A stretch of DNA of 64,000 nt from Thermogemmata fonticola (GTDB taxonomy: Bacteria > Planctomycetota > Planctomycetia > Gemmatales > Gemmataceae): positions 310,001 through 374,000 of the forward strand of contig NZ_JACEFB010000001.1 in the NCBI RefSeq assembly GCF_013694095.1, read 5' to 3'. A model generated the notes under the pieces. The model saw only the letters and a program-made list of their open reading frames with translations, searched no databases and was not told the origin of the DNA. Positions within the stretch are counted from its first letter, which is position 1; each line of letters begins with the position of its first letter. Positions 1 through 16,915 of this stretch are shown here, one piece after another. Position numbers and translations under genes: made by a program.

Positions 1-724
1 CGAGGGCATACACAGGGATGCCGAGGTTCGCCGCCAATTGGGCTGCTTGCCGGGGACGCAAATTGTCCTCGGTGATGTGGGTATGCTCGCCGTCGCTGAG
101 CAGAATCAGCACCTTCCTCAGATGGGGTGCCGCTTGCAGTCGGATCAGTCCCTCAGCCAGTGCATCCCCGACGTTGGTCCCGGCATCGATTCCCGCCTTC
201 GGTTCCAGACGTTCCACTTGCTGCCGCAGGACAGAGGCGTGATTGAATGTCAGCGGGCAGACAGTACGCGGCACAGCGGCGAAAGTTACCAGTCCGATCG
301 CATCCGAAGGACGGCCGGGAAACTCCTCTCCCTCCGGCGTCGTTCCCCCGAAAACGAAGAGCAGGAAGGCCCGCCGGGCGGCCTCCAGGCGGCTGATCTC
401 CGGCGCATCGCCCCACCAACGCACAGGTTCATTCATACTGCCGCTGATGTCCAACACCATCATGATGGCAATGCCTTCTGCAGGCAGCCGAGTCCGCTCG
501 TCAGGAATGCGCGGCCCCGCACAGGCGAACACCAGAAGACTTCCCACAACGAGTCGGCCCAATAACCCCCCCCACCGGGAGAACCGGGCGCGTCGGCCAG
601 ACAACCCTCCGAACAGCCGCACGTCACTGTAACACACCGCGGCACGACGCCGACGGAACCACCACCACGCCGCCACGACTACGACGGGAAGCAACCACCA
701 CGCTTGCGGATAAGCAAACTGCAT
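1..724 (-). CDS. BatA-like von Willebrand factor A membrane protein, partial (C-terminus outside window)
   Basis: Reading the minus strand from the ATG at 724 gives an uninterrupted frame of 241 codons that runs off position 1. The N-terminus is hydrophobic and tryptophan-rich ([20 protein letters not shown]), followed by a basic stretch and a second hydrophobic helix. This is the usual start of BatA/BatB-type aerotolerance proteins. A von Willebrand A domain follows, with a clear MIDAS motif ([12 protein letters not shown], near residue 85), the later threonine region ([10 protein letters not shown]) and the strand ending LLSDGEHTH. Such proteins bind a divalent metal through the MIDAS and usually belong to MoxR/Bat operons that act at the envelope; the neighbours that would confirm this lie outside the window. 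The start is 133 bp from the divergent P-type ATPase. Family membership is solid; the exact Bat subtype is inferred. Confidence 0.85.
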
Positions 725-856
725 ACCCACCGCCCGGCACAAGTCGTCCTACAATCCATGTCAGCGCTATCCTACGAGGAATTGTACACTAACTCTACGC
801 CCGCTCGCCGCCGAGGAAGGGAACCTCCATGCCGAAGAAGTAGCGAGGACCACCCT

Positions 857-3244
857 ATGACCCAGCCCGAACCTGCTCCGCGCCCGACCAGCTTTTCCCT
901 CAACCTGGCGGATGACACCTTGTCGGTACCATTGCACCTCGACCCGGTTTGTGGCATGCGCGTCAATCCGAACCAGGCGGCTGCCCAAGTGCAATACCAC
1001 CAGCAAACCTTTTACTTTTGCTCCAAACACTGCGCCCAAAAGTTCCAAGCGCAACCGGAACGCTATCTCCAAGCACCCGCGGCGGAAAGCTGCTGTGCCC
1101 TAGGAGCCGCCCCCTCAACAGTCCTGCCCGGCGCCCCTTACACCTGCCCGATGCATCCTGAGATCGTGCAGGACCACCCCGGCACCTGCCCTCTCTGCGG
1201 TATGGCTTTGGAAGCGACGCTGCCGGCAACCGATACCCTGCATGAGGAAGCGGAAACCCGACACCTCCGGTTCCTGACCCTTTGGGCCAGCGTGCTCTCC
1301 TTGCCTGTCCTGCTCTTGGCGATGGGACCGATGCTCATCGGCTATCACGGCCCCGACGGCTTCCATCTAATCAGCGCCATCGTGCAAGGGATTTTGAGCA
1401 CGGCGGTGGTATTTGGGTGCGGCCGGCTCATTTTTACCCGCGCTTGGGAAGCAGCCAGGCATCGCACGACCAACATGTTCACCCTCATCGCCATCGGAGT
1501 CCTGGCCGCCTGGGCTTACAGCACCCTCGCATTGCTTTTTCCGCAAATGTTCCCCGTGACCTTACGGAGTGAACAGGGAGAATTGCCCCTCTACTTTGAA
1601 GCGGCGGCGGTGATCGTTACTCTGGTGCTGCTTGGCCAATGGCTGGAAGCCCGCGGCCGGCACAAAACGGGGGAAGCCTTGCGCAGTCTACTCCGGCTCT
1701 CCCCGGAAACCGCTCTCCGCATCGAGGTGGATGGAGCGGAACGCGAAGTGCCCGTAGCTCTCATTCAGGTCGGTGATCGCTTGCGCATCCGGCCGGGGGA
1801 TCGCATTCCCGTCGATGGCTTGGTGCGCGAAGGTCACAGTGCGGTCGATGAATCCCTGCTGACCGGAGAAGCCATGCCTGTGGAGAAAAAGCCTGGTGAT
1901 CCGGTCATCGGCGGGACGCTCAACACGGAGGGCGTACTCATCATGGAGGCGACGCGGGTCGGCTCTGACACCATGCTCGCCCGCATCATTCAACTGGTCG
2001 CCCAGGCGCAGCGCAGTCGCGCTCCGGTCCAGCAACTGGCCGATCGCGTCGCGGCTCATTTCGTCCCGGCTGTTCTCCTCATCGCCCTGCTGACAGGCAT
2101 CGCGTGGTGGGCTTTTGGTCCGCCCCCCGCTTTCAATGCAGCCTTGCTTCACGCCGTTGCCGTGCTGATTATTGCCTGTCCCTGTGCATTGGGACTCGCT
2201 ACTCCCTTAGCAGTCACGGTCGGGGTGGGTCGAGCAGCCACGTTGGGCATCCTGATTCGTTCCGCACAGGCCCTGGAACAATTGGCTCAGGTGGACATTC
2301 TGGTACTCGACAAAACAGGGACCCTTACGGAAGGGCGCCCCCGCCTAACCGATGTGGTGGTGAACCCGCCGCATACTCCCGCCGAGGTCCTCCGCTGGGC
2401 GGCAGCCCTGGAAAACAACAGCACGCACCCCTTGGCGCGGACCATCACGGAGGCGGCACGCGAACGTGGACTTTCCTGGCCTCTGGTCGAGGAGTTCATG
2501 TCTGCTCCAGGGCGCGGCTTGCGCGGGCAAGTCGAAGGGAAAACGGTAGTTCTGGGCACGGCGCGGTGGGTTCAGGAACATGCTTCCCTTTCCTCCTCTT
2601 GGCTGGAACAAGCGGAGAGCCTCCGTCAGCAGGGAGCCACAGTTATGTTCTGTGCTGTGGAAGGGGAATGCGTAGCGCTCTTGGCAGCGCGCGATCCTGT
2701 ACGTTCGGATGCGGCCCAAGTCGTGCAACAGCTTCGTGCGGAGGGACTGCACCTGGTGATGGCCACAGGAGATGAAGCACGTACAGCTCAAGCAGTAGCT
2801 CAAGCCGTCCAGATCGTGGAGGTCCATGCCGGCGTGCTGCCGGAGGATAAGGTCGCGCTCATCCGCCGCTACCAGCAGCAGGGACATAAGGTGGCTATGG
2901 CCGGCGACGGCATCAATGATGCACCCGCCCTCAGCGCCGCCGATGTGGGAATCGCTTTAGGACACGGGGCCGATGTCGCCCTGGAAGCGGCCCCCGTCGT
3001 GCTCGTCAAAGGCGACCTCCCCGGCCTCCTCCGCGCCCGCCGACTCAGTTGCGCCACCGTCCGGATTATCCGCCAAAATCTGGTCTTCGCCTTCGCTTAC
3101 AACATCCTTGGCATTCCTCTAGCGGCGGGTCTGTTCGTTCCCGTGCTAGGAATTTCGCTCCATCCGATGTTCGCCGCCTTGGCCATGAGCCTGAGTTCCG
3201 TCTCAGTGGTCGCCAACGCCCTGCGGTTGCGCTATGCCCCGTGA
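857..3244 (+). CDS. P1B-type heavy-metal (probably copper/silver) translocating ATPase with YHS and metal-binding N-terminal domains
   Basis: A 795-residue ATP-driven metal exporter of the inner membrane. The N-terminus carries a YHS domain (DPVCGM at about residue 29, with a later FCSKHC) and then a heavy-metal-binding domain ([15 protein letters not shown], about residues 95-118). There is no classical HMA domain. The catalytic core is complete: TGEAMP near 336, the transmembrane metal site C441-P-C443, the phosphorylation motif DKTGTLT starting at D485, and GDGINDAP at 683-690. The CPC motif points to Cu(I)/Ag(I); the exact ion cannot be read from sequence. The frame is open upstream to 704, but that would overlap the divergent Bat-like start. 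The ATG at 857 has GAGGA seven bases upstream and begins directly before the YHS domain, so I chose it. No metal-responsive regulator sits beside it. Confidence 0.93.
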
Positions 3245-6286: not shown

Positions 6287-8806
6287 TCAGCGGGCCAAAG
6301 AGCCGGGGGAATCCTTGTAAGGTTTAAACGGCGAAGCGTCGAGAGTCAGGAACTGTCCGCCGCCCAGAGAGGTCCAAGCATAGAGCGCGGCACCCCCATC
6401 GGCGGCAGCGCCCAGTTTCAGGACGCGTTCTGTTCCATCGGTGAACTTGAGGGTGATAATGAGATATTCCTTGTCATTCTCCAAGCCATATTCCGGCTTG
6501 CTGGTTCCATCCAGGAAGGCTTTGACCTTCGTTTTGCTAAGCAGATCTAGGAAGGCCTGCAACTTCGACGGATCGAGCATGTATCCGGCGGGGGTGGGCG
6601 GTGTTTGCGCGGCCCAAGCACCGTCTTTGTTTTTTGTGAAGTGCAATTCGGTAAGGAAACCGGCCTTGCCCCAGCCTTTGAGTTGGACGCTCACCACCTG
6701 AGTCGCATCAAACTGCAAGAGGGATTTGTCCCGCAGGTCCGAGGTCAGGAAGCGATCCATCACTAGTTTGGGGAGGGTGAAAACGATGGCCTTCCCCGCC
6801 TGGCGAGCAAAGACATAACCGGGATCGGCCGTGGCTTTACCGAATTCGTAGGTGCGCTCCTTATCCTCGCCGCTCTGAAGATGCACGACCACCTTCAACT
6901 GCGGATTCGGTGCCAAGCCATATTCCTTAAGTTGCTCTTCCGTTGGCGTCTCGTTGATGTAGCGGGAGACGGATTGGGTAGTGCCGAGCAAGCGGAGCAT
7001 CTCTTCGACTGTCTCGGAGTCTGCAGATTGCCCCTTGCGATTATCCGGAGCAGCAAATGTCCAGCGATACTTATTGGTTCCGCTGTCGGGCTTTTCGGAG
7101 CGGGTCAGTTCATATTGCACGCTGCCGCTGACAGTGAGTTTGACGACGGCGTCTGACCCGAAGGTCTTCAAATTGGGGTCGAGCAGGTCGAGTCGGGTTT
7201 TCTGGAGGGTGGCCACCAGGTCCACGAGTGTGTCGCCGGCGGCAGCCAGCTTGACCTTTTCGGGAAGGAGGTAATCCGCACTGCTGCCATCCGGTAGGAT
7301 GCGGCGGACATAGACGGCATCCCCTTCCTTTTTGCCGATTTTGAGAATAATCGGTTTGGCATTGTCTTTGAGTTTGGGTTCGGCCTTAGCATCCGAGGTG
7401 GAGGTAAAAGCATCGGCCCAAACTTTGATTTCCAACTGCAAAGCCGGCCCTGCAAAATGAGCGTCATTGGGCGAAGGGAAGGAGCGAATAATGCGCCGCT
7501 CGCCCAGCAGATCAAGCATGCGTTGCACCGCGGTGGTGTTGACCGCTTGGGGTTCCATCGGCGTCGGCGGCCCGAATAATTTCCATTCCGGCGGCGTTCC
7601 TACCCGGCGCAGTATCACGCCTGTGGACAAATCCAACCCATCGATCCGGGCACGATCCACAGTAAGCAGATTGCGATCGCGCAAGGGGTCAGGGTTCTGA
7701 ATCAACGGAATCAGACCCTTCAGGTTGGCACCACCCACTCGGATGATGCCGGGTTGACCTTCGACGCGAACCCAGCGCTTCTCATCACCTGTAGGCAGGG
7801 GGACCTCTTTCTTATCCCCCTTTGGCTCTGGAGTATCGGGCTTGCCGATAAACACAGTTGCCGTTTCCTTGTCCTTGGTCGTGAGTCGCACCTGGATCAG
7901 CTCCGGATCATCGTTTTGCAGGCCATACTGTTTGAGTTGCTCGGCGGTGGGCAGCTCGACGAAATCACTTTTGGAGCTGGCACGCAAACTGGTTAAGGCG
8001 TTGAGCAGCGGGCGGACGCCGGTGAAAGTCCCTGGTGCGCTCTGCGGATCGCCCTGCACATCGGCCATTCCCCAGTCCTTGGGAAGCTGGAACTGCCAGC
8101 CCCCGCTTGTCTTTTCGAGGACAAACGACTTCTGTTGATTGACTAAGGACAATTCGAGTTTCTGGCTTTCCTCTTCGGCGCGGAATGATTCGACCGGGAA
8201 GATGTTCTTGTTGCGGAAATCCCCCTCGCTTTTCGCCAAGTCTGCCGCTTTTCCGCTCTTCTGAGTGTTGGATAGCAGAGGATCAATTACGCTCCGATTG
8301 ATTGCCAAAGGGTGCTTCTTGTCCGGAATCATCACGAAAGCAACGGCACGTCCCCCGCTTGTGACATCTCCAATGTCGATGCGGGCTGAGGTATCGCCGC
8401 TGCGCAAAGTGACGGTCAGTCCTGCGGGCTGCAACCCATGCAAGGCGGGATTGCTGGTCAGTTCCGGGTGCTGAATGGGTTTAGCTCGGAGCAACTCGCG
8501 GACAATATCGTTGACCGCCAGGGCATCCGCGGCGGCTTTCAGAGGAACCTTTTGACCCGAAGCATCTCTGGCTTCCCATTCCATGATCCAACGTTGAGGT
8601 CCCGTCCGCCGAAAAATGATCGGACTTTGATTTTCCCGTTCGATTTCCACCGTATCGATGTCTTCCGGTTTTACCCCGGCCAATTGGGGAAACAAACTTC
8701 CCTCAGACGATGGGGAGTCTTCTGGAGAGAAGAAGGTCAGAAGCAACAAAGTGGCGACGAGCACCAATCCCACGATGCCAAGCGCGGCGGTCAGTCGGAA
8801 GTTCAT
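6287..8806 (-). CDS. DUF4340 domain protein, last gene of a Gld-like ABC operon
   Basis: An 839-residue protein with one N-terminal transmembrane helix (LGIVGLVLVATLLLLTF) and a large extracytoplasmic part. A motif built around a YGL or HGL turn followed by a strand pair and a glycine occurs four times: HGLQPAGLTV (about residue 120), YGLQNDDPEL (about 305), YGLAPNPQLK (about 640) and YGLENDKEYL (about 790). This is the pattern of DUF4340 repeats. DUF4340 proteins commonly follow GldG-like genes, as here. Function is not established; an accessory role to the ABC exporter is inferred from the order. A GTG start four codons upstream overlaps the GAGGAG ribosome-binding site, so the ATG at 8806 is preferred. 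Confidence 0.85.
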   Translation of the reverse strand: MNFRLTAALGIVGLVLVATLLLLTFFSPEDSPSSEGSLFPQLAGVKPEDIDTVEIERENQSPIIFRRTGPQRWIMEWEARDASGQKVPLKAAADALAVNDIVRELLRAKPIQHPELTSNPALHGLQPAGLTVTLRSGDTSARIDIGDVTSGGRAVAFVMIPDKKHPLAINRSVIDPLLSNTQKSGKAADLAKSEGDFRNKNIFPVESFRAEEESQKLELSLVNQQKSFVLEKTSGGWQFQLPKDWGMADVQGDPQSAPGTFTGVRPLLNALTSLRASSKSDFVELPTAEQLKQYGLQNDDPELIQVRLTTKDKETATVFIGKPDTPEPKGDKKEVPLPTGDEKRWVRVEGQPGIIRVGGANLKGLIPLIQNPDPLRDRNLLTVDRARIDGLDLSTGVILRRVGTPPEWKLFGPPTPMEPQAVNTTAVQRMLDLLGERRIIRSFPSPNDAHFAGPALQLEIKVWADAFTSTSDAKAEPKLKDNAKPIILKIGKKEGDAVYVRRILPDGSSADYLLPEKVKLAAAGDTLVDLVATLQKTRLDLLDPNLKTFGSDAVVKLTVSGSVQYELTRSEKPDSGTNKYRWTFAAPDNRKGQSADSETVEEMLRLLGTTQSVSRYINETPTEEQLKEYGLAPNPQLKVVVHLQSGEDKERTYEFGKATADPGYVFARQAGKAIVFTLPKLVMDRFLTSDLRDKSLLQFDATQVVSVQLKGWGKAGFLTELHFTKNKDGAWAAQTPPTPAGYMLDPSKLQAFLDLLSKTKVKAFLDGTSKPEYGLENDKEYLIITLKFTDGTERVLKLGAAADGGAALYAWTSLGGGQFLTLDASPFKPYKDSPGSLAR

Positions 8807-8968
8807 GATCGCACCCACTCCTCAGTCCATGATTCCGGATGGGTAAGGTGGCGCAGGGAGGCTCAGGCTCTGCTGACCAGGCAAGCAGCCAAGGGGACGG
8901 GCACCTCTTACTTTTCCCATGTGGCAATCTGTTTCTGTCCCCATTCAGCGCTTGCCCTGACCGTTTTT

Positions 8969-11119
8969 TCACCGGCGCCGGACCACCCACACTCCCGCCC
9001 CCATTCCCATGACGGTCAGTAACCCCAAGCCCAAAGGCAGCCAGAGCAGCCGGCTGAAATTGAGGCTGTTCGGAGGCGGGATGCGATATTCCGTGTATTT
9101 CTTGGCTTCGATATTCACAGCGGCCAAAGAGGTTTGCCGTTCCCGAAGCCAATCCACGCTCACCCCCAACAGATCGAAGGTCACCGGATTGGAGGTGCGC
9201 TGTTGTTGAGCTATCCGATCGCTAAACACCAGACTGCTGCCGAAGGCGACTAAGCGCGGCGTAGTCCCCTCGCTCACCGTCACCGCCACGGAACGAGGAG
9301 ACCGGCTCAGGCGTACCTGTTCCTGCACCCGTTCATTGCCCAAGATTTCCTCAAACCGGGCGACCAAGTCTGCGGGCCGCGTGGTTTCCAGCCAAGTGAT
9401 CCCTACGGTCAAGAGCAAGTCACTTGCTTGAAACGACGGATGGGTGTTCTGAGGGGATATTTCCCGCGGATAGAGGAATTGCAAGCGGGTCGTAATCCGG
9501 GCTATCGTTTGGAGGATTGGATTCTTGACCGCCGAGGCGCTGAAGACCACGAGAGGCGCCCGATAGTCCACACCGGCACCGGTCGGCAATGTGTACAGAT
9601 ACTCCATACCCACGCGGACGTTGTACTCTGCGAGCAAGTCTTCAATACCCGTTCGCAAAACTTGGCCGTCGGGTCCGGGCGTTGCCCCGGAGAAGTAAAT
9701 TAGTTTCCCCTTCTTCTCCTTGCGATTCATGTAATCCCTGAGAGCTTTCAGAGCTTCAGGAGAGAAGGGGTTTTGTGGATCGGCAATCACAACCACCGTG
9801 GCGTCATCCGGTATCTTCGGATTGGGCTGGTTCAGATGCACCGTCCGCACATCGAGATAATTCTTTTCCAAATACTGGCGGAGACGGCTAACCGATCGTT
9901 CCGGCGGGGCTTCAGGGTTGTTGGTGGCATCCATTTCACCGTGGCCTTGTGTGAAATAGACGACCGGCTTGTTCTGACTATCCGCAAGGAAGGCGATCTC
10001 CTGGTAGAGTTTCTTTTCCCCTTCAAAATTGCGGCGGCTGAAGTCGAACATGTCAGTGTCGGACACCACGGCGTGGCGTTTTTCGTCGGCGGATGAGGTC
10101 AGCAAAATGGCAACCTGCGTGGTGCGCTGATCCATGACCATCTCGAATTGCGGGTACTTTTCTCGCAGGGAGGCCAATTCGGTGCGGTCGGCGGATTGAC
10201 TCAAAAAGCGGACCACAAAGCGGCCGCCGCTTGCATCTTGCATCGCTAAGAGCAACTGGCGGATGTCGTTGATGTCCCGATCGGGAACATTGGGAATCAC
10301 CGCGTAGGCGCGGACAGGCGGATCGAGATTTTGCAGCAATTGCCGCGTGGGTTCGGACAGGGTGTAAAAGCCGGTCGCTGTGGTATCGAGTTGATTGGGA
10401 ATCTCACGAGCAATGACGACGTTCACCACGATCAGGACCACGAGCAGCAGCAGAGTGGTTAGGCCGAAATTCGAGCCGTAAACCAGGCGGCGGATCAGGG
10501 CGTCGTGCCTCTCTTCTCTCCGAGCCGGAATCACCGACAGGAAGACCACCAGCACACCGCAGAGAATCATGAGCAGGGGCAAAAGCACCCAACGTGCCTC
10601 GCGGAAGTTCCGCTGATCCAGCCAGCGCGTCAAACTTTCGCTCCAGACGTACAGGAAAATGATCCCCGCGACGATTAGCAACAATCCCAGCAGACTGCCC
10701 CCAATCAGCAGGAACAAGCGGATTTCCGTGCGCTGTTGCGCGATTTCTTTCGCCGGGGTTCGGAGAAGTAAAAACCAGGACATGCTCAGCAGAATGACGG
10801 CAGCGGCAAAAACCGTCACGCCGCCGACGATGTATTCACCCCGGCGTAGGTTTGCCAGCTCGGTCCCGCCGTCGTCTTTGGCGCTTCCCGACTCAGAGTC
10901 TTTGCCGGACTCTGCTTTTTTTTCCGTAGGGGTGGGGGATGAAAGTTTCCACAAGCCGCCGCGATATGTCCAATAGGCAAAGAGCACCAGGCATACCGCC
11001 GCCAAACCGACTAGCACTCCTCCCACCACTGGGCGATGCTGGCAAACCCAGTCCACAAAGCGATCGCTTGTGCTCACAGGGGCATTATCTGCCGGAGTCC
11101 GATCCGCTGTCTCCACCAT
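8969..11119 (-). CDS. GldG-like ABC transporter auxiliary protein
   Basis: A 716-residue membrane protein. About five hydrophobic helices fill the first 270 residues. A large soluble region then starts DTTATGFYTLSEPT and contains VVYFTQGHGE, VVVIADPQNP and LIYFSGATPG, which are hallmarks of the GldG/ABC-type uncharacterised domain. A final helix (LPLGLGLLTVMGMGAGVWVV) ends in RRR. In Bacteroidetes GldG works with GldA and GldF in gliding; homologues in non-gliding bacteria are widespread and of unclear role. The open frame reaches 11188 with a TTG start, but the ATG at 11119 has GGAAG six bases upstream and fits the family better. It lies between the permease and the DUF4340 gene, about 270 and 160 bp from them. 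Confidence 0.85.
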   Translation of the reverse strand: MVETADRTPADNAPVSTSDRFVDWVCQHRPVVGGVLVGLAAVCLVLFAYWTYRGGLWKLSSPTPTEKKAESGKDSESGSAKDDGGTELANLRRGEYIVGGVTVFAAAVILLSMSWFLLLRTPAKEIAQQRTEIRLFLLIGGSLLGLLLIVAGIIFLYVWSESLTRWLDQRNFREARWVLLPLLMILCGVLVVFLSVIPARREERHDALIRRLVYGSNFGLTTLLLLVVLIVVNVVIAREIPNQLDTTATGFYTLSEPTRQLLQNLDPPVRAYAVIPNVPDRDINDIRQLLLAMQDASGGRFVVRFLSQSADRTELASLREKYPQFEMVMDQRTTQVAILLTSSADEKRHAVVSDTDMFDFSRRNFEGEKKLYQEIAFLADSQNKPVVYFTQGHGEMDATNNPEAPPERSVSRLRQYLEKNYLDVRTVHLNQPNPKIPDDATVVVIADPQNPFSPEALKALRDYMNRKEKKGKLIYFSGATPGPDGQVLRTGIEDLLAEYNVRVGMEYLYTLPTGAGVDYRAPLVVFSASAVKNPILQTIARITTRLQFLYPREISPQNTHPSFQASDLLLTVGITWLETTRPADLVARFEEILGNERVQEQVRLSRSPRSVAVTVSEGTTPRLVAFGSSLVFSDRIAQQQRTSNPVTFDLLGVSVDWLRERQTSLAAVNIEAKKYTEYRIPPPNSLNFSRLLWLPLGLGLLTVMGMGAGVWVVRRR

Positions 11120-11392
11120 AGTTCGCTTCCCGATACGCTCGTGGGATACTGTTCGCGATGTTCCCTCAGCCCATGTATCCTGAGTCAATCTCCGCGAATG
11201 TCGCGTGTTAGTGTTATTTCAGTCACGGCCCCGTCCTTTGTTCGCTCCATGCTGGTTTGCCCAATCAGGCAACGATCACGGCAATGTCACCTTGGCCGTT
11301 TTTGTATGCATCCCTCGCAGTTCTCCCATGCAGTGGTGGCTGGAAGCAATTCCCCCTTGGATACACTTTTCCCTCAGTCTGGCCTAGGGACC

Positions 11393-13192
11393 TTAGAGCC
11401 ACTTGCGTGCTTCGAGGACCTTGACGGTGAGAAAGAGCCAAAACACTCCCAAGGAGACAAACATCAGGGCATCCCGCATTGGCAGACGGCCGGCCAACGA
11501 CTCCTCCCACATGTGGTAGAAGGACAAGCGCCCCAAAGCCATTTGCAATATCTGCGGCAAGATCGAGCCGCTTTGTTGCAGCCGGATGATATAGCACAAC
11601 AGAAAGAACATCATGCCCACGAAGGTGAAGACCGCAGCGATGATCTGATTGCGGGTGAGCGAGGAGAAGAACAGCCCCATTCCGACGAAGGCCACCCCCT
11701 GCGCCATCAGGCTGGCGTAAAAGCTCAACAAGGGGCGATAGTCGAAGGGGGATTCCACTTCCATCCGTAGGGCAATCAGATACAATCCCGACGGTAGCCA
11801 ACTGATCAGGAAAAAGAGCCAAGTGGCCAAGAATTTGCTCAGCACGACCGGCCATTCGTTGACCGGGGCGGTGAGTAGCACCTCTAGGGTGCCCGTGCGG
11901 CGCTCCTCGGCCAGCAATCGCATCGTAAGGGCTGGCACCTGGACCATCACGGCAAAAACCATGAGCAGGTTGTAATAATCGCTGACGATTGGCTCAGGCA
12001 AGGCTTCACCAAACTGGCCCGCACGCACCAATTGGAAAATGAACAGGTAATAACCGATCCATTGCAACATCACCATCCCCCCCAAGACCAGATAGCCGAT
12101 GGGGGAGAGAAAATAGGCCGACAGCTCGCGCCGGGCCAACGCTACAAATTGACTGTCAGATATATAGCTGAGGGAAAAGAGCAGGTGAATGACCCCTAAC
12201 CCCATCAGGATCAAACCGTTGGGGACCAAGAATGGCGTCGGAGGGGAGTGAATTGGGCGTGAGAAAAGTGAGAGGATCACCGCCACGACGCCAATGCCGC
12301 TGAAGAGCGAGGCTAGCACTCTCCACCAGAGGGCAGAGCGGTTGAGCCAAGCGATCCCCGCGGGCAGGGCAAACACCACCGCGGTCAACAGCCGCCACAG
12401 CACGGCTTTGAAAGACAGTTCTCCCGTGGCAAGCCGCAGGGAAGTCGGGCCGTCGTAAAGCAATGCATGGACGGACGGCCAGAGGATGCCATACCCCAGC
12501 AGGAGGCCGCCAATGGTCCCCATAGCCACCGCCACCGTATAGCCCAAACCTTGAGTGGTATCCACTTGGGAGAGAAACAGCCAAAGGAAGCCCAAACCCA
12601 GTAATGCCAGAGCTAAACCGGGACCGACCAGGAACGTGGGAAACAGCAGACCCGCCGCTATACTCCCCACTGTCAGCAATGCCCCGATTCCCAACACGCC
12701 GAAGAGGGCCGTTCGCCGATAGGCTTCTTCCGTCTCGTGCCGCAAAAAGGGGAAGAAGAAGAGCAAAGCCACGCCGGCACTGCCCACTCCCCAGGGTAGG
12801 AGATTATGCCCAATGTGTTTGTCCGGTACTCCGGAGGCGAACACCGGGCCGGGAATCAAGGACACGGCCAAGGCGTAGAACAGGATCAGCAGGGCAAACC
12901 CGCCGTAGAGCCGGCGGATTTCGATATTACTGTCTGTGATGGCGTGATAGAACATCAGGGACAAGCCAACCGCGATGGCAAAAAAGCCCATACTCTCCGA
13001 GATGAGTCGAGGGGTCTCGGTGGCACGGTTAGCCACCACAGCCACGGTGCCCAAAATGAAGAGGAACAGACCTGTAAAACCTATCAACCGTGGCAGGCTT
13101 GGCCCTTCTTCCAGGATCGGCGAGGGAGGGGTCTCGCCCACCGCAATGGAATTCTCCGTCTTATCCGAAGACTTCACAGGTGTTTCGATCAT
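11393..13192 (-). CDS. ABC-2 type permease with long membrane N-terminal extension (GldF-like)
   Basis: A 599-residue integral membrane protein. The C-terminal half (from about residue 345, ARRELSAYFLSPIGYLVLGG) is a normal ABC-2/NosY/GldF-type permease, including the segment LLAEERRTGTLEVLLTAPV and a C-terminal helix. The first 340 residues add about nine further hydrophobic helices. Simple GldF proteins have about 240-260 residues, so this is a fusion or expansion. It lies 60 bp after the ATPase gene and is almost certainly co-transcribed and complexed with it. The start ATG has AGAAGGAA upstream. The transported substrate is unknown. Confidence 0.85.
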   Translation of the reverse strand: MIETPVKSSDKTENSIAVGETPPSPILEEGPSLPRLIGFTGLFLFILGTVAVVANRATETPRLISESMGFFAIAVGLSLMFYHAITDSNIEIRRLYGGFALLILFYALAVSLIPGPVFASGVPDKHIGHNLLPWGVGSAGVALLFFFPFLRHETEEAYRRTALFGVLGIGALLTVGSIAAGLLFPTFLVGPGLALALLGLGFLWLFLSQVDTTQGLGYTVAVAMGTIGGLLLGYGILWPSVHALLYDGPTSLRLATGELSFKAVLWRLLTAVVFALPAGIAWLNRSALWWRVLASLFSGIGVVAVILSLFSRPIHSPPTPFLVPNGLILMGLGVIHLLFSLSYISDSQFVALARRELSAYFLSPIGYLVLGGMVMLQWIGYYLFIFQLVRAGQFGEALPEPIVSDYYNLLMVFAVMVQVPALTMRLLAEERRTGTLEVLLTAPVNEWPVVLSKFLATWLFFLISWLPSGLYLIALRMEVESPFDYRPLLSFYASLMAQGVAFVGMGLFFSSLTRNQIIAAVFTFVGMMFFLLCYIIRLQQSGSILPQILQMALGRLSFYHMWEESLAGRLPMRDALMFVSLGVFWLFLTVKVLEARKWL

Positions 13193-13251
13193 GGGAATCG
13201 GATTCCTTCTGAAGCCTCGCTGGGGGATGCGGCAGTGTTAGCTTGGTTGGC

Positions 13252-14244
13252 TCATGAGGCGTGAGTTTGCGAAGACGCTTCAGCCGGGGCCGGACTCCCG
13301 GAATGGTTGTTCTCCCGCAAAACCACCTCCGCGAACAACGCCTCCAAGCTGACCCGTTGGACGTCGAGCCGCCGCAGATTCCAGCCGCGTTCGATGATCT
13401 GCCGGGCCAGCGTTTCCCGCGGGTCCTTGCCATCCCGGCTTTGTAGCTCAAAGGCCGTCAAATCCGATTCGATCCCGCGCTCGGACAGGACGATCAAATC
13501 ATTCCGTTCCCGCAAGACGGCACTGGCCGCTTCCCGCGGTCCCCGCACCTCGACGATATAAGTGGGTTTACGCTCGGAGATGCGCCGGAGCGATTCATCC
13601 AGCTTGATCCGACCTTTATCGATGATGATGACGCGTTCGCAGACTTTCTCCACCTCGCTGAGGATGTGTGTGGAGAGTAAGACCGTGTGTTTCCCGCCGA
13701 GTTGCTTGATGGTGGAGAGGGTCTCTGCGATCTGGACTGGGTCTAGGCCGCTGGTAGGTTCATCCAAGATCAGAATCGGAGGATCAGCCAATAAGGCATC
13801 TGCCAGGCCCACGCGCTGGCGATACCCTTTGGATAGGGTGCCCAAAAGGCGGTTCCTCACTTCCCGGATATGGCAGCGTTCCATGCAGTAGTCGATGCGG
13901 ATATTCCGCTGGCTGCGCTCCACGCCTTTGACACGTGCCCGATATTGCAGATACTCGCGGACCCGCATTTCAGGGTACAAGGGAATACTCTCCGGCAGGT
14001 AGCCGATACGCCGCCGGACTTCCAGGGATTCATACATGACATCGAAGCCGGCCAGGCGGGCATAGCCGCTGGAGGCGGGCAGCCACGTTGTGAGAATGCG
14101 CATGCAAGTGGATTTGCCAGCTCCGTTTGGTCCGAGGAAGCCGACTAACTCCCCCGGCTGCACCGTGAAACTGACTCGGTCCACGGCGAGCACAGGACCG
14201 TAATTCTTCGTCAGATTTTCCACTTGGATGGCGGGGGCGCCCAT
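13252..14244 (-). CDS. ABC transporter ATP-binding protein (GldA-like)
   Basis: A 330-residue ATPase of the ABC-2 exporter class. Walker A is GPNGAGKST at residues 38-46. The family-typical YLPE segment is followed by a signature LSKGYRQR (in place of LSGGQ), Walker B ILILDEPTSGLDP and the H-loop LLSTHIL. The C-terminal domain (DLTAFELQ..DVQRVSLEALFAEV) is the usual one for GldA/CcmA-like subunits. A TTG start 15 codons upstream has little support, so the ATG at 14244 is used. It is the first gene of the four-gene minus-strand operon and lies back to back with the penicillin-acylase gene, so the operon promoter should fall within 14245-14542. Confidence 0.93.
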   Translation of the reverse strand: MGAPAIQVENLTKNYGPVLAVDRVSFTVQPGELVGFLGPNGAGKSTCMRILTTWLPASSGYARLAGFDVMYESLEVRRRIGYLPESIPLYPEMRVREYLQYRARVKGVERSQRNIRIDYCMERCHIREVRNRLLGTLSKGYRQRVGLADALLADPPILILDEPTSGLDPVQIAETLSTIKQLGGKHTVLLSTHILSEVEKVCERVIIIDKGRIKLDESLRRISERKPTYIVEVRGPREAASAVLRERNDLIVLSERGIESDLTAFELQSRDGKDPRETLARQIIERGWNLRRLDVQRVSLEALFAEVVLRENNHSGSPAPAEASSQTHAS

Positions 14245-14542: not shown

Positions 14543-16915
14543 ATGGATGGGATGAATCTCTATCGCCTTTTACTCCGGTTGATTCTGGGACGCCGCCTGC
14601 CTCGGTGGGAAGGCGAGTTGCGCCTTGCGGGTCCGTGCGCTCCGATCACAATCCGCCGGGATTCGTGGGGCGTTCCGCACATCGATGCCGCCTCTGACAC
14701 CGATGCCCTGTTTGCTCTAGGTTTTTGTCAGGGTCAAGATCGCGCGGGGCAGTTGGAAGTCCTGTGGCGTTTGAGCCGAGGGCGGCTCGCTGAGTGGGTC
14801 GGGATTGCAGGTTTGGGGTTGGATCGCCTGAGCCGCCGCATCGGGTTCCGCCGCGCTGCCTTAGCCCAATTGGAGGTTCAGTTCGGCTGGGTGCGGGAGT
14901 GGCTGGCCGCCTTCACCGCTGGAGTCAATGCAGGTCTGTCAGCAGGCCTCCCCCGCAAACCGCATGAATTCGCCATCTTGGGGGGACAGCCTTCGAGGTG
15001 GGACGAGGCCGACTTGCTTGCCGTCTTGAAACTCCAGTCCTTCCTGCTCCCCTCGAATTGGGACATGGAACTGCTGCGCTTTCGAATTCTGCTCCAGGAC
15101 GGTCCCGACGCCGTAGCAGCTCTCGACCCATCGGCGGTTGCCGCGCCAGTCTCGCATTCCGGAGCAACGGGTCTCGAGGCGGGTTTGAACCAATTGCAGA
15201 GCGAGATCGCCTCTTTGCGTGCGTTTCTGGGACTTGGAGGAGGCTCCAATAACTGGGTGATGGCTGGGCAACGCACCGCCAGTGGCAAGCCTTTGCTGGC
15301 GAATGACCCGCATTTATCACCCACCGTGCCGCCGCCGTGGTATCTGGCCCATGTCCGCACGCCGGAGTGGGAGGCCGCTGGGGCCATGCTGGCAGGTTCG
15401 CTAGGTTTTGGCGTCGGCCACAATGGCTTCTGCGCATGGGGTGTCACAGCCGCCCTGAGCGACAACACCGATCTGTTCGTGGAAACCCTGCATTCCGATG
15501 GTTCAAGTGTCCGCGAGCCGGACGGGAGTTGGACACCCTGCGAGCGAGTGCGGGAAGTTATCCATGTTCGTCGGGGTGAGGATCACGTGGAAGAGGTGCT
15601 GATCACCCCGCGCGGCCCGATCGTCACCCCAGCTTTGGCGGATGTGCCCTATGCCTTGTCTTTGCGGGCGGTTTGGCTTGATCCCTTGCCAATTGACGGC
15701 TTCCTCAGCGCTCCGCGGGCACGTTCCTTCGCTCAATTCCGGCAAGCCTTCGCCCATTGGCCCCTTTTACCGCTCAACGTCGTCTATGCGGACAGTGCGG
15801 GCACCATCGGCTGGCAGATGACCGGCCAGATACCGCGGCGCAAAGGCGGCACGGGACTGTTACCTACGGGAGCTGCCCAACCTGGCGCCGGCTGGGATAC
15901 GGAACTGATTCCCTTTGCGCAGATGCCATACGTGGAAAATCCACCTCAAGGATACTGGGTGACGGCTAACCAGAACCCGCGTCTCGATTTGCCGGACCTG
16001 GCAATTCACCTGGGATCAGATTATTGCGATCCTTACCGCTATCGGGCCATCCAAGAGGCTTTGGCCAACCGCAGCCAAGGCTGGACGGCAGAGGACTGCT
16101 TAAAGCTACAATGCAGCACCCGCTCCGTTCCCTGGGAGGATATCCGGGACATTGTATTGTCACTTTCCGTGCAGGATCGCGATGCCGTCGAGGCTTTGAA
16201 GCTTCTGAAAAACTGGAACGGAGAAGTGTCGGCGGACTCTCCCGCAGCAGCAGTGTTTGAAGTGTTCGTAACGGGCATGATCGTGGAATTGACAAAACTG
16301 CGAGCACCACACACCTGGCAGTTGGCATTACAAAGTGGGGACTCCAATCTCTTTGCTGACCGGCGCGTCGGACATCTGATCCACCTGCTCCGAACCCAAC
16401 CGGCTGGATGGGTTGCTTCCTGGTCTCAATTTATGGAGCAAGCTTTGGGCCAAGCGGTCCGCAGATTACGGCAGCACGCGGGTCCTGGCCATGCCTATTG
16501 GTCCTGGGGTCACGTGCGTATGCTCCGTCTCAAGCACCTGGTCTTCGGTACGGTTCGCGGACTGTCGGCTTGTTTCAATTTGGGTCCAGTCCCCTGCCCC
16601 GGTGATGCTAACACTATTTCCCAAGCGGCAGTTTCCCTCCTCAATCCCTTCGCAGATACGCACAACATGGCTAATCTGCGAGCGGTCTTCGATTTGGCTC
16701 AGCTCGGAGAGAGCCGTTTTATCCTTTGCGGCGGGCAGAGCGGCAATCCCTGTTCTCCTCACTATGACGATCAATTGCCACTCTGGCAGCGTGGCGAGGC
16801 CATCACTCTGCCGTGGAGTCAGGCGGATGTTATCCGGGCCACGCGGCACACCTTGCGGCTATTGCCCGCTTCGACAATCTCAGATAGTCCTCTTTCTCCA
16901 GCATCAGCGGGATGA
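14543..16915 (+). CDS. Penicillin acylase (penicillin amidase) family hydrolase
   Basis: A 790-residue N-terminal-nucleophile hydrolase precursor. The alpha-chain part begins ITIRRDSWGVPHI and has the GFCQGQDRAGQLEVLWRLSRG block. The autoproteolytic site and nucleophile appear as GGGSNNWVMAG, with the catalytic serine at residue 235. Other family blocks are NDPHLSPTVPPPWYLAHV, GVGHNGFCAWGVTA and the C-terminal NPFADTHNMANLRAVFDL. Family members cleave amide bonds in beta-lactams, acyl-homoserine lactones or other N-acyl compounds; the substrate cannot be predicted here. No convincing signal peptide is present: the N-terminus is basic and only moderately hydrophobic (MNLYRLLLRLILG), although many relatives are periplasmic. 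A second ATG lies three codons in. Confidence 0.92.
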   Translation: MDGMNLYRLLLRLILGRRLPRWEGELRLAGPCAPITIRRDSWGVPHIDAASDTDALFALGFCQGQDRAGQLEVLWRLSRGRLAEWVGIAGLGLDRLSRRIGFRRAALAQLEVQFGWVREWLAAFTAGVNAGLSAGLPRKPHEFAILGGQPSRWDEADLLAVLKLQSFLLPSNWDMELLRFRILLQDGPDAVAALDPSAVAAPVSHSGATGLEAGLNQLQSEIASLRAFLGLGGGSNNWVMAGQRTASGKPLLANDPHLSPTVPPPWYLAHVRTPEWEAAGAMLAGSLGFGVGHNGFCAWGVTAALSDNTDLFVETLHSDGSSVREPDGSWTPCERVREVIHVRRGEDHVEEVLITPRGPIVTPALADVPYALSLRAVWLDPLPIDGFLSAPRARSFAQFRQAFAHWPLLPLNVVYADSAGTIGWQMTGQIPRRKGGTGLLPTGAAQPGAGWDTELIPFAQMPYVENPPQGYWVTANQNPRLDLPDLAIHLGSDYCDPYRYRAIQEALANRSQGWTAEDCLKLQCSTRSVPWEDIRDIVLSLSVQDRDAVEALKLLKNWNGEVSADSPAAAVFEVFVTGMIVELTKLRAPHTWQLALQSGDSNLFADRRVGHLIHLLRTQPAGWVASWSQFMEQALGQAVRRLRQHAGPGHAYWSWGHVRMLRLKHLVFGTVRGLSACFNLGPVPCPGDANTISQAAVSLLNPFADTHNMANLRAVFDLAQLGESRFILCGGQSGNPCSPHYDDQLPLWQRGEAITLPWSQADVIRATRHTLRLLPASTISDSPLSPASAG

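Follow-up and report, generated by a model that had tools for sequence, protein, structure and literature searches.

The operon and its proteins

The 64-kb window analyzed here (positions 310,001 to 374,000 of contig NZ_JACEFB010000001.1 of the planctomycete Thermogemmata fonticola, order Gemmatales) contains on its minus strand, from position 14244 to 6287, an operon of four genes in one direction. In this order, they encode an ATP-binding cassette (ABC) ATPase, an ABC-2 permease with an N-terminal array of ten predicted helices, a GldG-like protein, and a DUF4340 protein. A first-pass annotation, made from the sequence alone, had given the same gene order, and Pfam identified each of the genes: all operon domains, ABC_tran, ABC2_membrane, ABC_transp_aux with DUF7088, and DUF4340, passed the Pfam cut-offs in adjacent genes. 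The intergenic gaps are 59 bases between the ATPase and permease genes, 204 bases between the permease and GldG-like genes, and 150 bases between the GldG-like and DUF4340 genes. No terminator-like site was found in these gaps on the minus strand, and three promoter-like sites compare with 3.4 expected by chance. The operon is real and had been read correctly in outline.

The first gene (13252..14244) encodes a GldA-like ATPase of 330 amino acids, assigned by Pfam (ABC_tran, 103.7 bits), NCBIfam, and motif positions, with the motif LSKGYRQR at residue 137. Its score against the NCBIfam model of GldA, TIGR03522, was 304.4 bits and below the curated cut-off of 402.6. The permease also remained below the cut-off of the GldF model (TIGR03518, 103.7 bits, cut-off 288.5), with a match to residues 351 to 595 only, as did the GldG-like protein with respect to GldG (TIGR03521, 25.0 bits, cut-off 389.85).

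The GldG-like protein (8969..11188) is up to 739 amino acids long; its gene starts with TTG, and an in-frame methionine follows at residue 24. According to Pfam and hydropathy, five N-terminal helices precede DUF7088 (30.3 bits) and ABC_transp_aux (65.1 bits), followed by one C-terminal helix. Among the GldG proteins of the order with at most 760 amino acids, 54 were aligned, and 42 of these have five helices upstream of DUF7088, compared to three or four in the Isosphaeraceae-type proteins (n = 4), which indicates a mild expansion of the membrane part of GldG.

The DUF4340 protein (6287..8818) has 843 amino acids, and the start of its aligned relatives corresponds to residue 5. Pfam (146.4 bits in three stretches), a structural model, and self-comparison yielded an N-terminal helix at residues 7 to 30 and five tandem repeats of about 145 to 170 residues each, starting near residues 45, 214, 383, 545, and 700. 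Repeat 1 (residues 45 to 213; 8180..8686) carries an HGL motif; repeats 2 (214 to 382; 7673..8179), 4 (545 to 699; 6722..7186), and 5 (700 to 842; 6293..6721) carry YGL; and repeat 3 (383 to 544; 7187..7672) carries the degenerate motif FAGP. The four YGL-type repeats counted previously correspond to four HGL or YGL motifs, but the number of repeats is five. The model was of high quality (pLDDT 90.8, pTM 0.70), and its best match in the PDB was a weak one (VIA Z 3.5 over 57 residues). With Foldseek, the first 28 rows had probabilities of at most 0.20, and the highest value among the 50 listed was 0.54, for a designed barrel. In the open literature searched, DUF4340 was named by two papers, and by none together with GldG.

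The permease: a helix array in front of an ABC-2 core

The permease (11393..13192; 599 amino acids) was divided on the basis of Pfam, NCBIfam, and AlphaFold2 into the N-terminal array and a GldF-like core. The core (residues 346 to 599; 11393..12157) contains ABC2_membrane_2 (52.5 bits, best stretch 404 to 539) and has a NosY-like fold: VIA-align superimposed it on 7o12_E (NosY) with a Z of 21.2 and a root mean square deviation of 2.8 over 236 residues. A sequence search of the PDB with the permease, GldG-like, and DUF4340 proteins gave nothing meaningful.

The extension comprises residues 1 to 345 (12158..13192). The first-pass annotation had expected about 340 extra residues, which agrees with this value and with the start of the GldF model match at residue 351, and about nine helices, which has to be corrected to ten. 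The AlphaFold2 model (68 aligned sequences, mean pLDDT 91.9, pTM 0.86) places helices before residue 346 at 32-58, 66-86, 90-112, 131-152, 156-183, 185-209, 215-247, 261-283, 288-310, and 322-344, and the hydropathy count was also ten. In the 74 extended permeases, including that of the window, hydropathy indicated 6 to 10 helices upstream of the core, with at least 7 in 71 of them. Helices 8 and 9 (residues about 248 to 312; 12257..12451) form an extra hairpin, which is present in the clade of the window and missing in the other extended permeases (alignment columns 501 to 600).

Aligned with itself, the profile of the extension matched at a shift of about 59 residues (97.9%, score 98.7), with residues 26 to 241 covered together. 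As controls, 40 local shuffles did not exceed 22.7, and the core aligned with itself scored 13.9. The self-match above these controls indicates that the array is built for the most part from two-helix modules in tandem.

Two other origins of the array were considered. The possibility that the N-terminal helices are a second ABC-2 permease copy, which the first-pass annotation had itself raised against its reading, was ruled out by a profile comparison of extension and core (0.2% probability). A Pfam search with 27 members of the extension listed 25 families, none of them ABC-2; the extension of the window matched no family, and other members gave scattered weak ones only. A derivation from the membrane hairpin of GldG reached a best score of 37.6 (54% probability; 28% with another trimming) and is not supported, because a score of 39.2 was obtained with column-shuffled GldG profiles (40 trials).

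Distribution in the Planctomycetota

The conservation survey proposed by the first-pass annotation was based on 79 loci fetched by permease similarity, the best of 418 relatives, with the order and family names of the relatives inferred from named records. All four genes in order and on one strand were present in 66 loci, 11 loci were cut by contig ends, and 2 lacked the ATPase. The latter, L114 (upstream of 9872) and L115 (upstream of 9893), are Gemmata-labelled drafts with permease, GldG, and DUF4340 present and no open reading frame (ORF) matching the ATPase profile at an E value of 1e-8 across the 21.7-kb locus. The nearest relative in named records was the Gemmataceae draft SKYG125 (L102), with 77% permease identity.

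A permease match was obtained in 189 of the 199 sampled genomes of the phylum, and in all 114 of those with a completeness of 90% or more and a contamination of 5% or less; a DUF4340 match was obtained in 87 of 99. Within the order, all 102 genomes had a permease match, 94 of them at an E value of 2.2e-53 or better, a level not reached by any short permease among the rows listed (strongest, 1.9e-39 in G200). The other eight genomes were all drafts with many contigs. Three of these (G200, G219, and G253) also contained fragments resembling the extended kind, three (G242, G247, and G283) had only other permeases among the matches listed, and G202 and G215 had none among these matches. The expansion of the permease is a property of the whole order and not of this genome alone.

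With the thresholds applied, the genome of the window has only one such permease and a single gene for DUF4340. Other members of the order possess an additional operon (L265 to L276), whose permease is short, whose GldG-like protein in most cases has about 810 to 900 amino acids, and whose DUF4340 protein can reach about 1,400 amino acids; this operon was not found in the genome of the window.

Outside the extended group, the same gene order with a short permease was found in L177, L178, L179, L238, and L241 to L244. Next to fused permease-GldG genes, the DUF4340 profile derived from the order missed the gene in 11 of 12 loci. Pfam placed DUF4340 2.3 to 2.5 kb downstream of the permease core and on the same strand in all four of the class genomes from outside the order that were covered (G024, G048, G069, and G087), so that the apparent absence of DUF4340 beside fused genes is a limit of the profile.

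Evolution of the extension

The class was sampled with 98 genomes, 25 of them from the order, and 24 of these 25 matched the part of the profile that represents the extension. In the 73 others, the matches listed started at model position 252 or later of 534. In Isosphaeraceae (L177, L178, and L180), the permease stands alone and has about 255 amino acids. Most other families of the class have the core close to the beginning of a frame of about 880 to 1,120 amino acids, and in 7 of 12 such loci, a weak GldG match follows within this frame. Among 293 other genomes of the phylum, with at most 8 candidates scored per genome, nothing convincing resembled the extension; weak short matches of at most 20.7 bits in 13 of these genomes were treated as chance. 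The extension profile also had no match in 20 loci at an E value of 1 and none in 20 further loci at 0.001.

A tree of 168 permease cores united all 75 extended permeases in one clade (support 0.972), which included the contig-truncated L134. Its sister group was formed by short Isosphaeraceae-type permeases together with L277 (support 0.991). Since all extended cores share one clade that is sister to short permeases, the extension was probably gained once. L277 has a two-helix hairpin in front of the core, with a profile similarity to the extension of 5.3 bits, which is suggestive, at most, of a stepwise origin of the extension from such a hairpin.

In the comparison of the window with L102 by the NG86 method, the nonsynonymous (dN) and synonymous (dS) rates were 0.23 and 1.76 for the extension and 0.077 and 1.70 for the core, with dS near saturation. 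Judged from these rates, the sequence of the extension is constrained, but more loosely than that of the core.

Extra membrane helices inside fused permease or GldG proteins were also seen in two other planctomycetes, L235 (ORF of 1113 amino acids) and L241 (ORF of 1169 amino acids). These further additions of helices indicate that growth of the membrane part recurs in the family.

Possible function of the complex

ABC machines of this type are widespread in bacteria and were first recognized in gliding species. Taken together, the operon may represent the version, in the Gemmatales, of a GldA-GldF-GldG-DUF4340 complex conserved in planctomycetes, a housekeeping machine of the cell envelope with an added intramembrane scaffold. 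We hold this reading with about even confidence. The mechanism and the substrate we infer as follows. Two ATPases and two permeases would form the ABC engine. The GldG-like protein and the DUF4340 protein with its five repeats would stand in the periplasm, each held by a predicted membrane anchor. In NosDFY, ABC components drive a partner protein in the periplasm, and by analogy, ATP hydrolysis may be relayed via the permease to the large domains of GldG and DUF4340. The client of the engine would be a component of the envelope, most likely a lipid or lipoprotein, which is moved or matured in this way. The array of ten helices would lie beside the engine in the membrane and provide GldG or this client with a docking site, acting as a scaffold or lateral platform.

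Published observations on related genes point in this direction. According to a passage of a review, GldJ and GldK depend on GldA for their stability, and GldK also on GldF (PMC9127263). In Flavobacterium psychrophilum, a passage naming gldG describes reduced GldK, GldN, and SprT and mentions a secretion deficiency of gldD or gldG mutants (PMC5682007). In Verrucomicrobium spinosum, a DUF4340 domain is reported in one passage as essential (PMC12283558). As far as these passages go, they suggest together maintenance of envelope proteins rather than motility. "Export or envelope remodelling," as put forward in the first-pass annotation, is not demonstrated, and the envelope half of this proposal is the better supported one. 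The main text of an essentiality paper on Planctopirus limnophila, including its passages on envelope genes, names no such ABC system.

Several observations have to be set against this reading. The ATPase is not in place in L114 and L115, DUF4340 was unmatched in 12 of the 99 phylum genomes, four of these among 60 of good quality, and five genomes of the order had no extended permease among the matches listed. The near-saturated dS affects the comparison with L102. A match of the modeled core to the NosY fold does not establish the same action as in NosDFY, and the fold was also matched by ABCA, ABCG, PmtCD, and a mycobacterial efflux pump (Z 15.5 to 18.0). The passage on V. spinosum does not establish a place of its DUF4340 gene in a Gld-like operon. 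Finally, LolA was found in 32 of the 99 phylum genomes. The idea that the Gld-like machine simply replaces LolA was rejected for this reason. In the genome of the window itself, LolA had no match, with a positive Escherichia coli control, which speaks for the reading.

The fold shared with the ABCA, ABCG, and PmtCD transporters would fit a true ABC-2 exporter. Here the substrate, which may be a lipid, a polysaccharide, or a lipoprotein, would cross the inner membrane through the core and then be guided along GldG and DUF4340 in the periplasm, and the helix array would enlarge the site of entry. Five chained periplasmic DUF4340 repeats could even reach the outer membrane. This explanation is possible but doubtful: Pfam recognized no gene for glycan, lipid, or peptide biosynthesis among the scanned neighbors (24 of the other ORFs of the window), and no flanking gene cluster occurred in more than 10 of the 79 loci. 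Comparison of DUF4340 with lipid-carrying folds gave no convincing match, but this carries little weight, since its PDB matches were weak throughout.

Alternatively, the array may have a separate function, as a carrier, channel, or sensor that became joined to an otherwise normal GldF and left the engine unchanged. An approximately 3-fold faster evolution than that of the core (dN), tolerance of a two-helix insertion, and the missing Pfam match in the window would fit this case. It is nevertheless unlikely, since the array was not found standing alone, with nothing convincing in the 293 other phylum genomes, the pTM of the full-length model favors a fixed position relative to the core, and smaller hairpins precede the core in other lineages. 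A gliding motility transporter, for which the same ATPase-permease-GldG trio and the LSKGYRQR signature given for Flavobacterium johnsoniae GldA in a passage of PMC9127263 would speak, is extremely improbable because the ATPase, permease, and GldG-like protein all miss the NCBI cut-offs, the five GldK profile matches in the genome are all below the cut-off, the permease is nearly universal in the phylum sample, and no gliding gene was recognized among the 24 other ORFs scanned with Pfam (six without a match at an E value of 0.001; not every ORF of the window covered). The SprA_N profile had no match in the genome, and its control likewise remained without any match. The first-pass annotation had also seen no gliding genes nearby and had suggested a role other than gliding, and both statements are supported here.

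Within the reading as an envelope machine with an added scaffold, a bolder proposal may be made, to which we assign a low probability. The Gemmatales would have enlarged the machine by tandem duplication of a two-helix module, and the array would be a chamber that holds a lipid or lipoprotein and feeds this client to the periplasmic GldG-DUF4340 arm. Each permease would contribute about 16 helices and a dimer perhaps 32, to which those of GldG would be added, and the complex would correspond in planctomycetes to a system for the delivery of lipoproteins or lipids.

The Gld-like permease is almost universal in the sampled Planctomycetota, yet few papers in the open literature searched name DUF4340. 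The array was apparently gained once and in one order. The short permease of the Isosphaeraceae and the arrays of varying helix number in the Gemmatales offer a natural comparison, which makes the role of the membrane part testable in culturable strains and could help to account for how planctomycetes build their envelope.

Neighborhood of the operon

The operon is adjoined by a divergent gene of the penicillin amidase family (14543-16915), and a P-type metal ATPase with YHS and heavy-metal domains is located further away (704-3244), both assigned by Pfam. In 8 to 9 of the 79 loci, from Isosphaeraceae and Gemmatales (L177, L178, L131, L140, L147, L155, and others), the same genes followed downstream of the DUF4340 gene. 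By eye and without a family search, these resemble peptide deformylase, methionyl-tRNA formyltransferase, and MiaB. Their presence in both groups suggests an old shared location of the operon that was not kept in the window.

Comparison with known systems

With NosFY of NosDFY, the permease shares the fold of the core (Z 21.2, root mean square deviation 2.8 over 236 residues) and the general design of an ABC-2 engine with a periplasmic accessory protein. The accessory proteins are GldG and DUF4340 instead, the permease has ten extra helices, and no nos gene was recognized among the scanned neighbors of the operon. With GldA-GldF-GldG of Flavobacterium, the operon shares the three kinds of subunits, LSKGYRQR in the ATPase, and scores of 103.7 bits for GldF and 304.4 bits for GldA. 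It differs by scores below all three cut-offs, the extra helices in permease and GldG, the DUF4340 partner, and the lack of a recognized gliding gene near the operon. Close counterparts are also other GldA-GldF-GldG-DUF4340 operons of the Planctomycetota (for example, Singulisphaera, L177, and L178), with the same gene order and a permease from the sister clade. Their permease of about 255 amino acids is without the helix array, and their GldG has about 610 amino acids, compared to up to 739 here. The operon is an order-wide variant of a common machine and not a new kind of system, and its interest lies in the helix array built from repeats.

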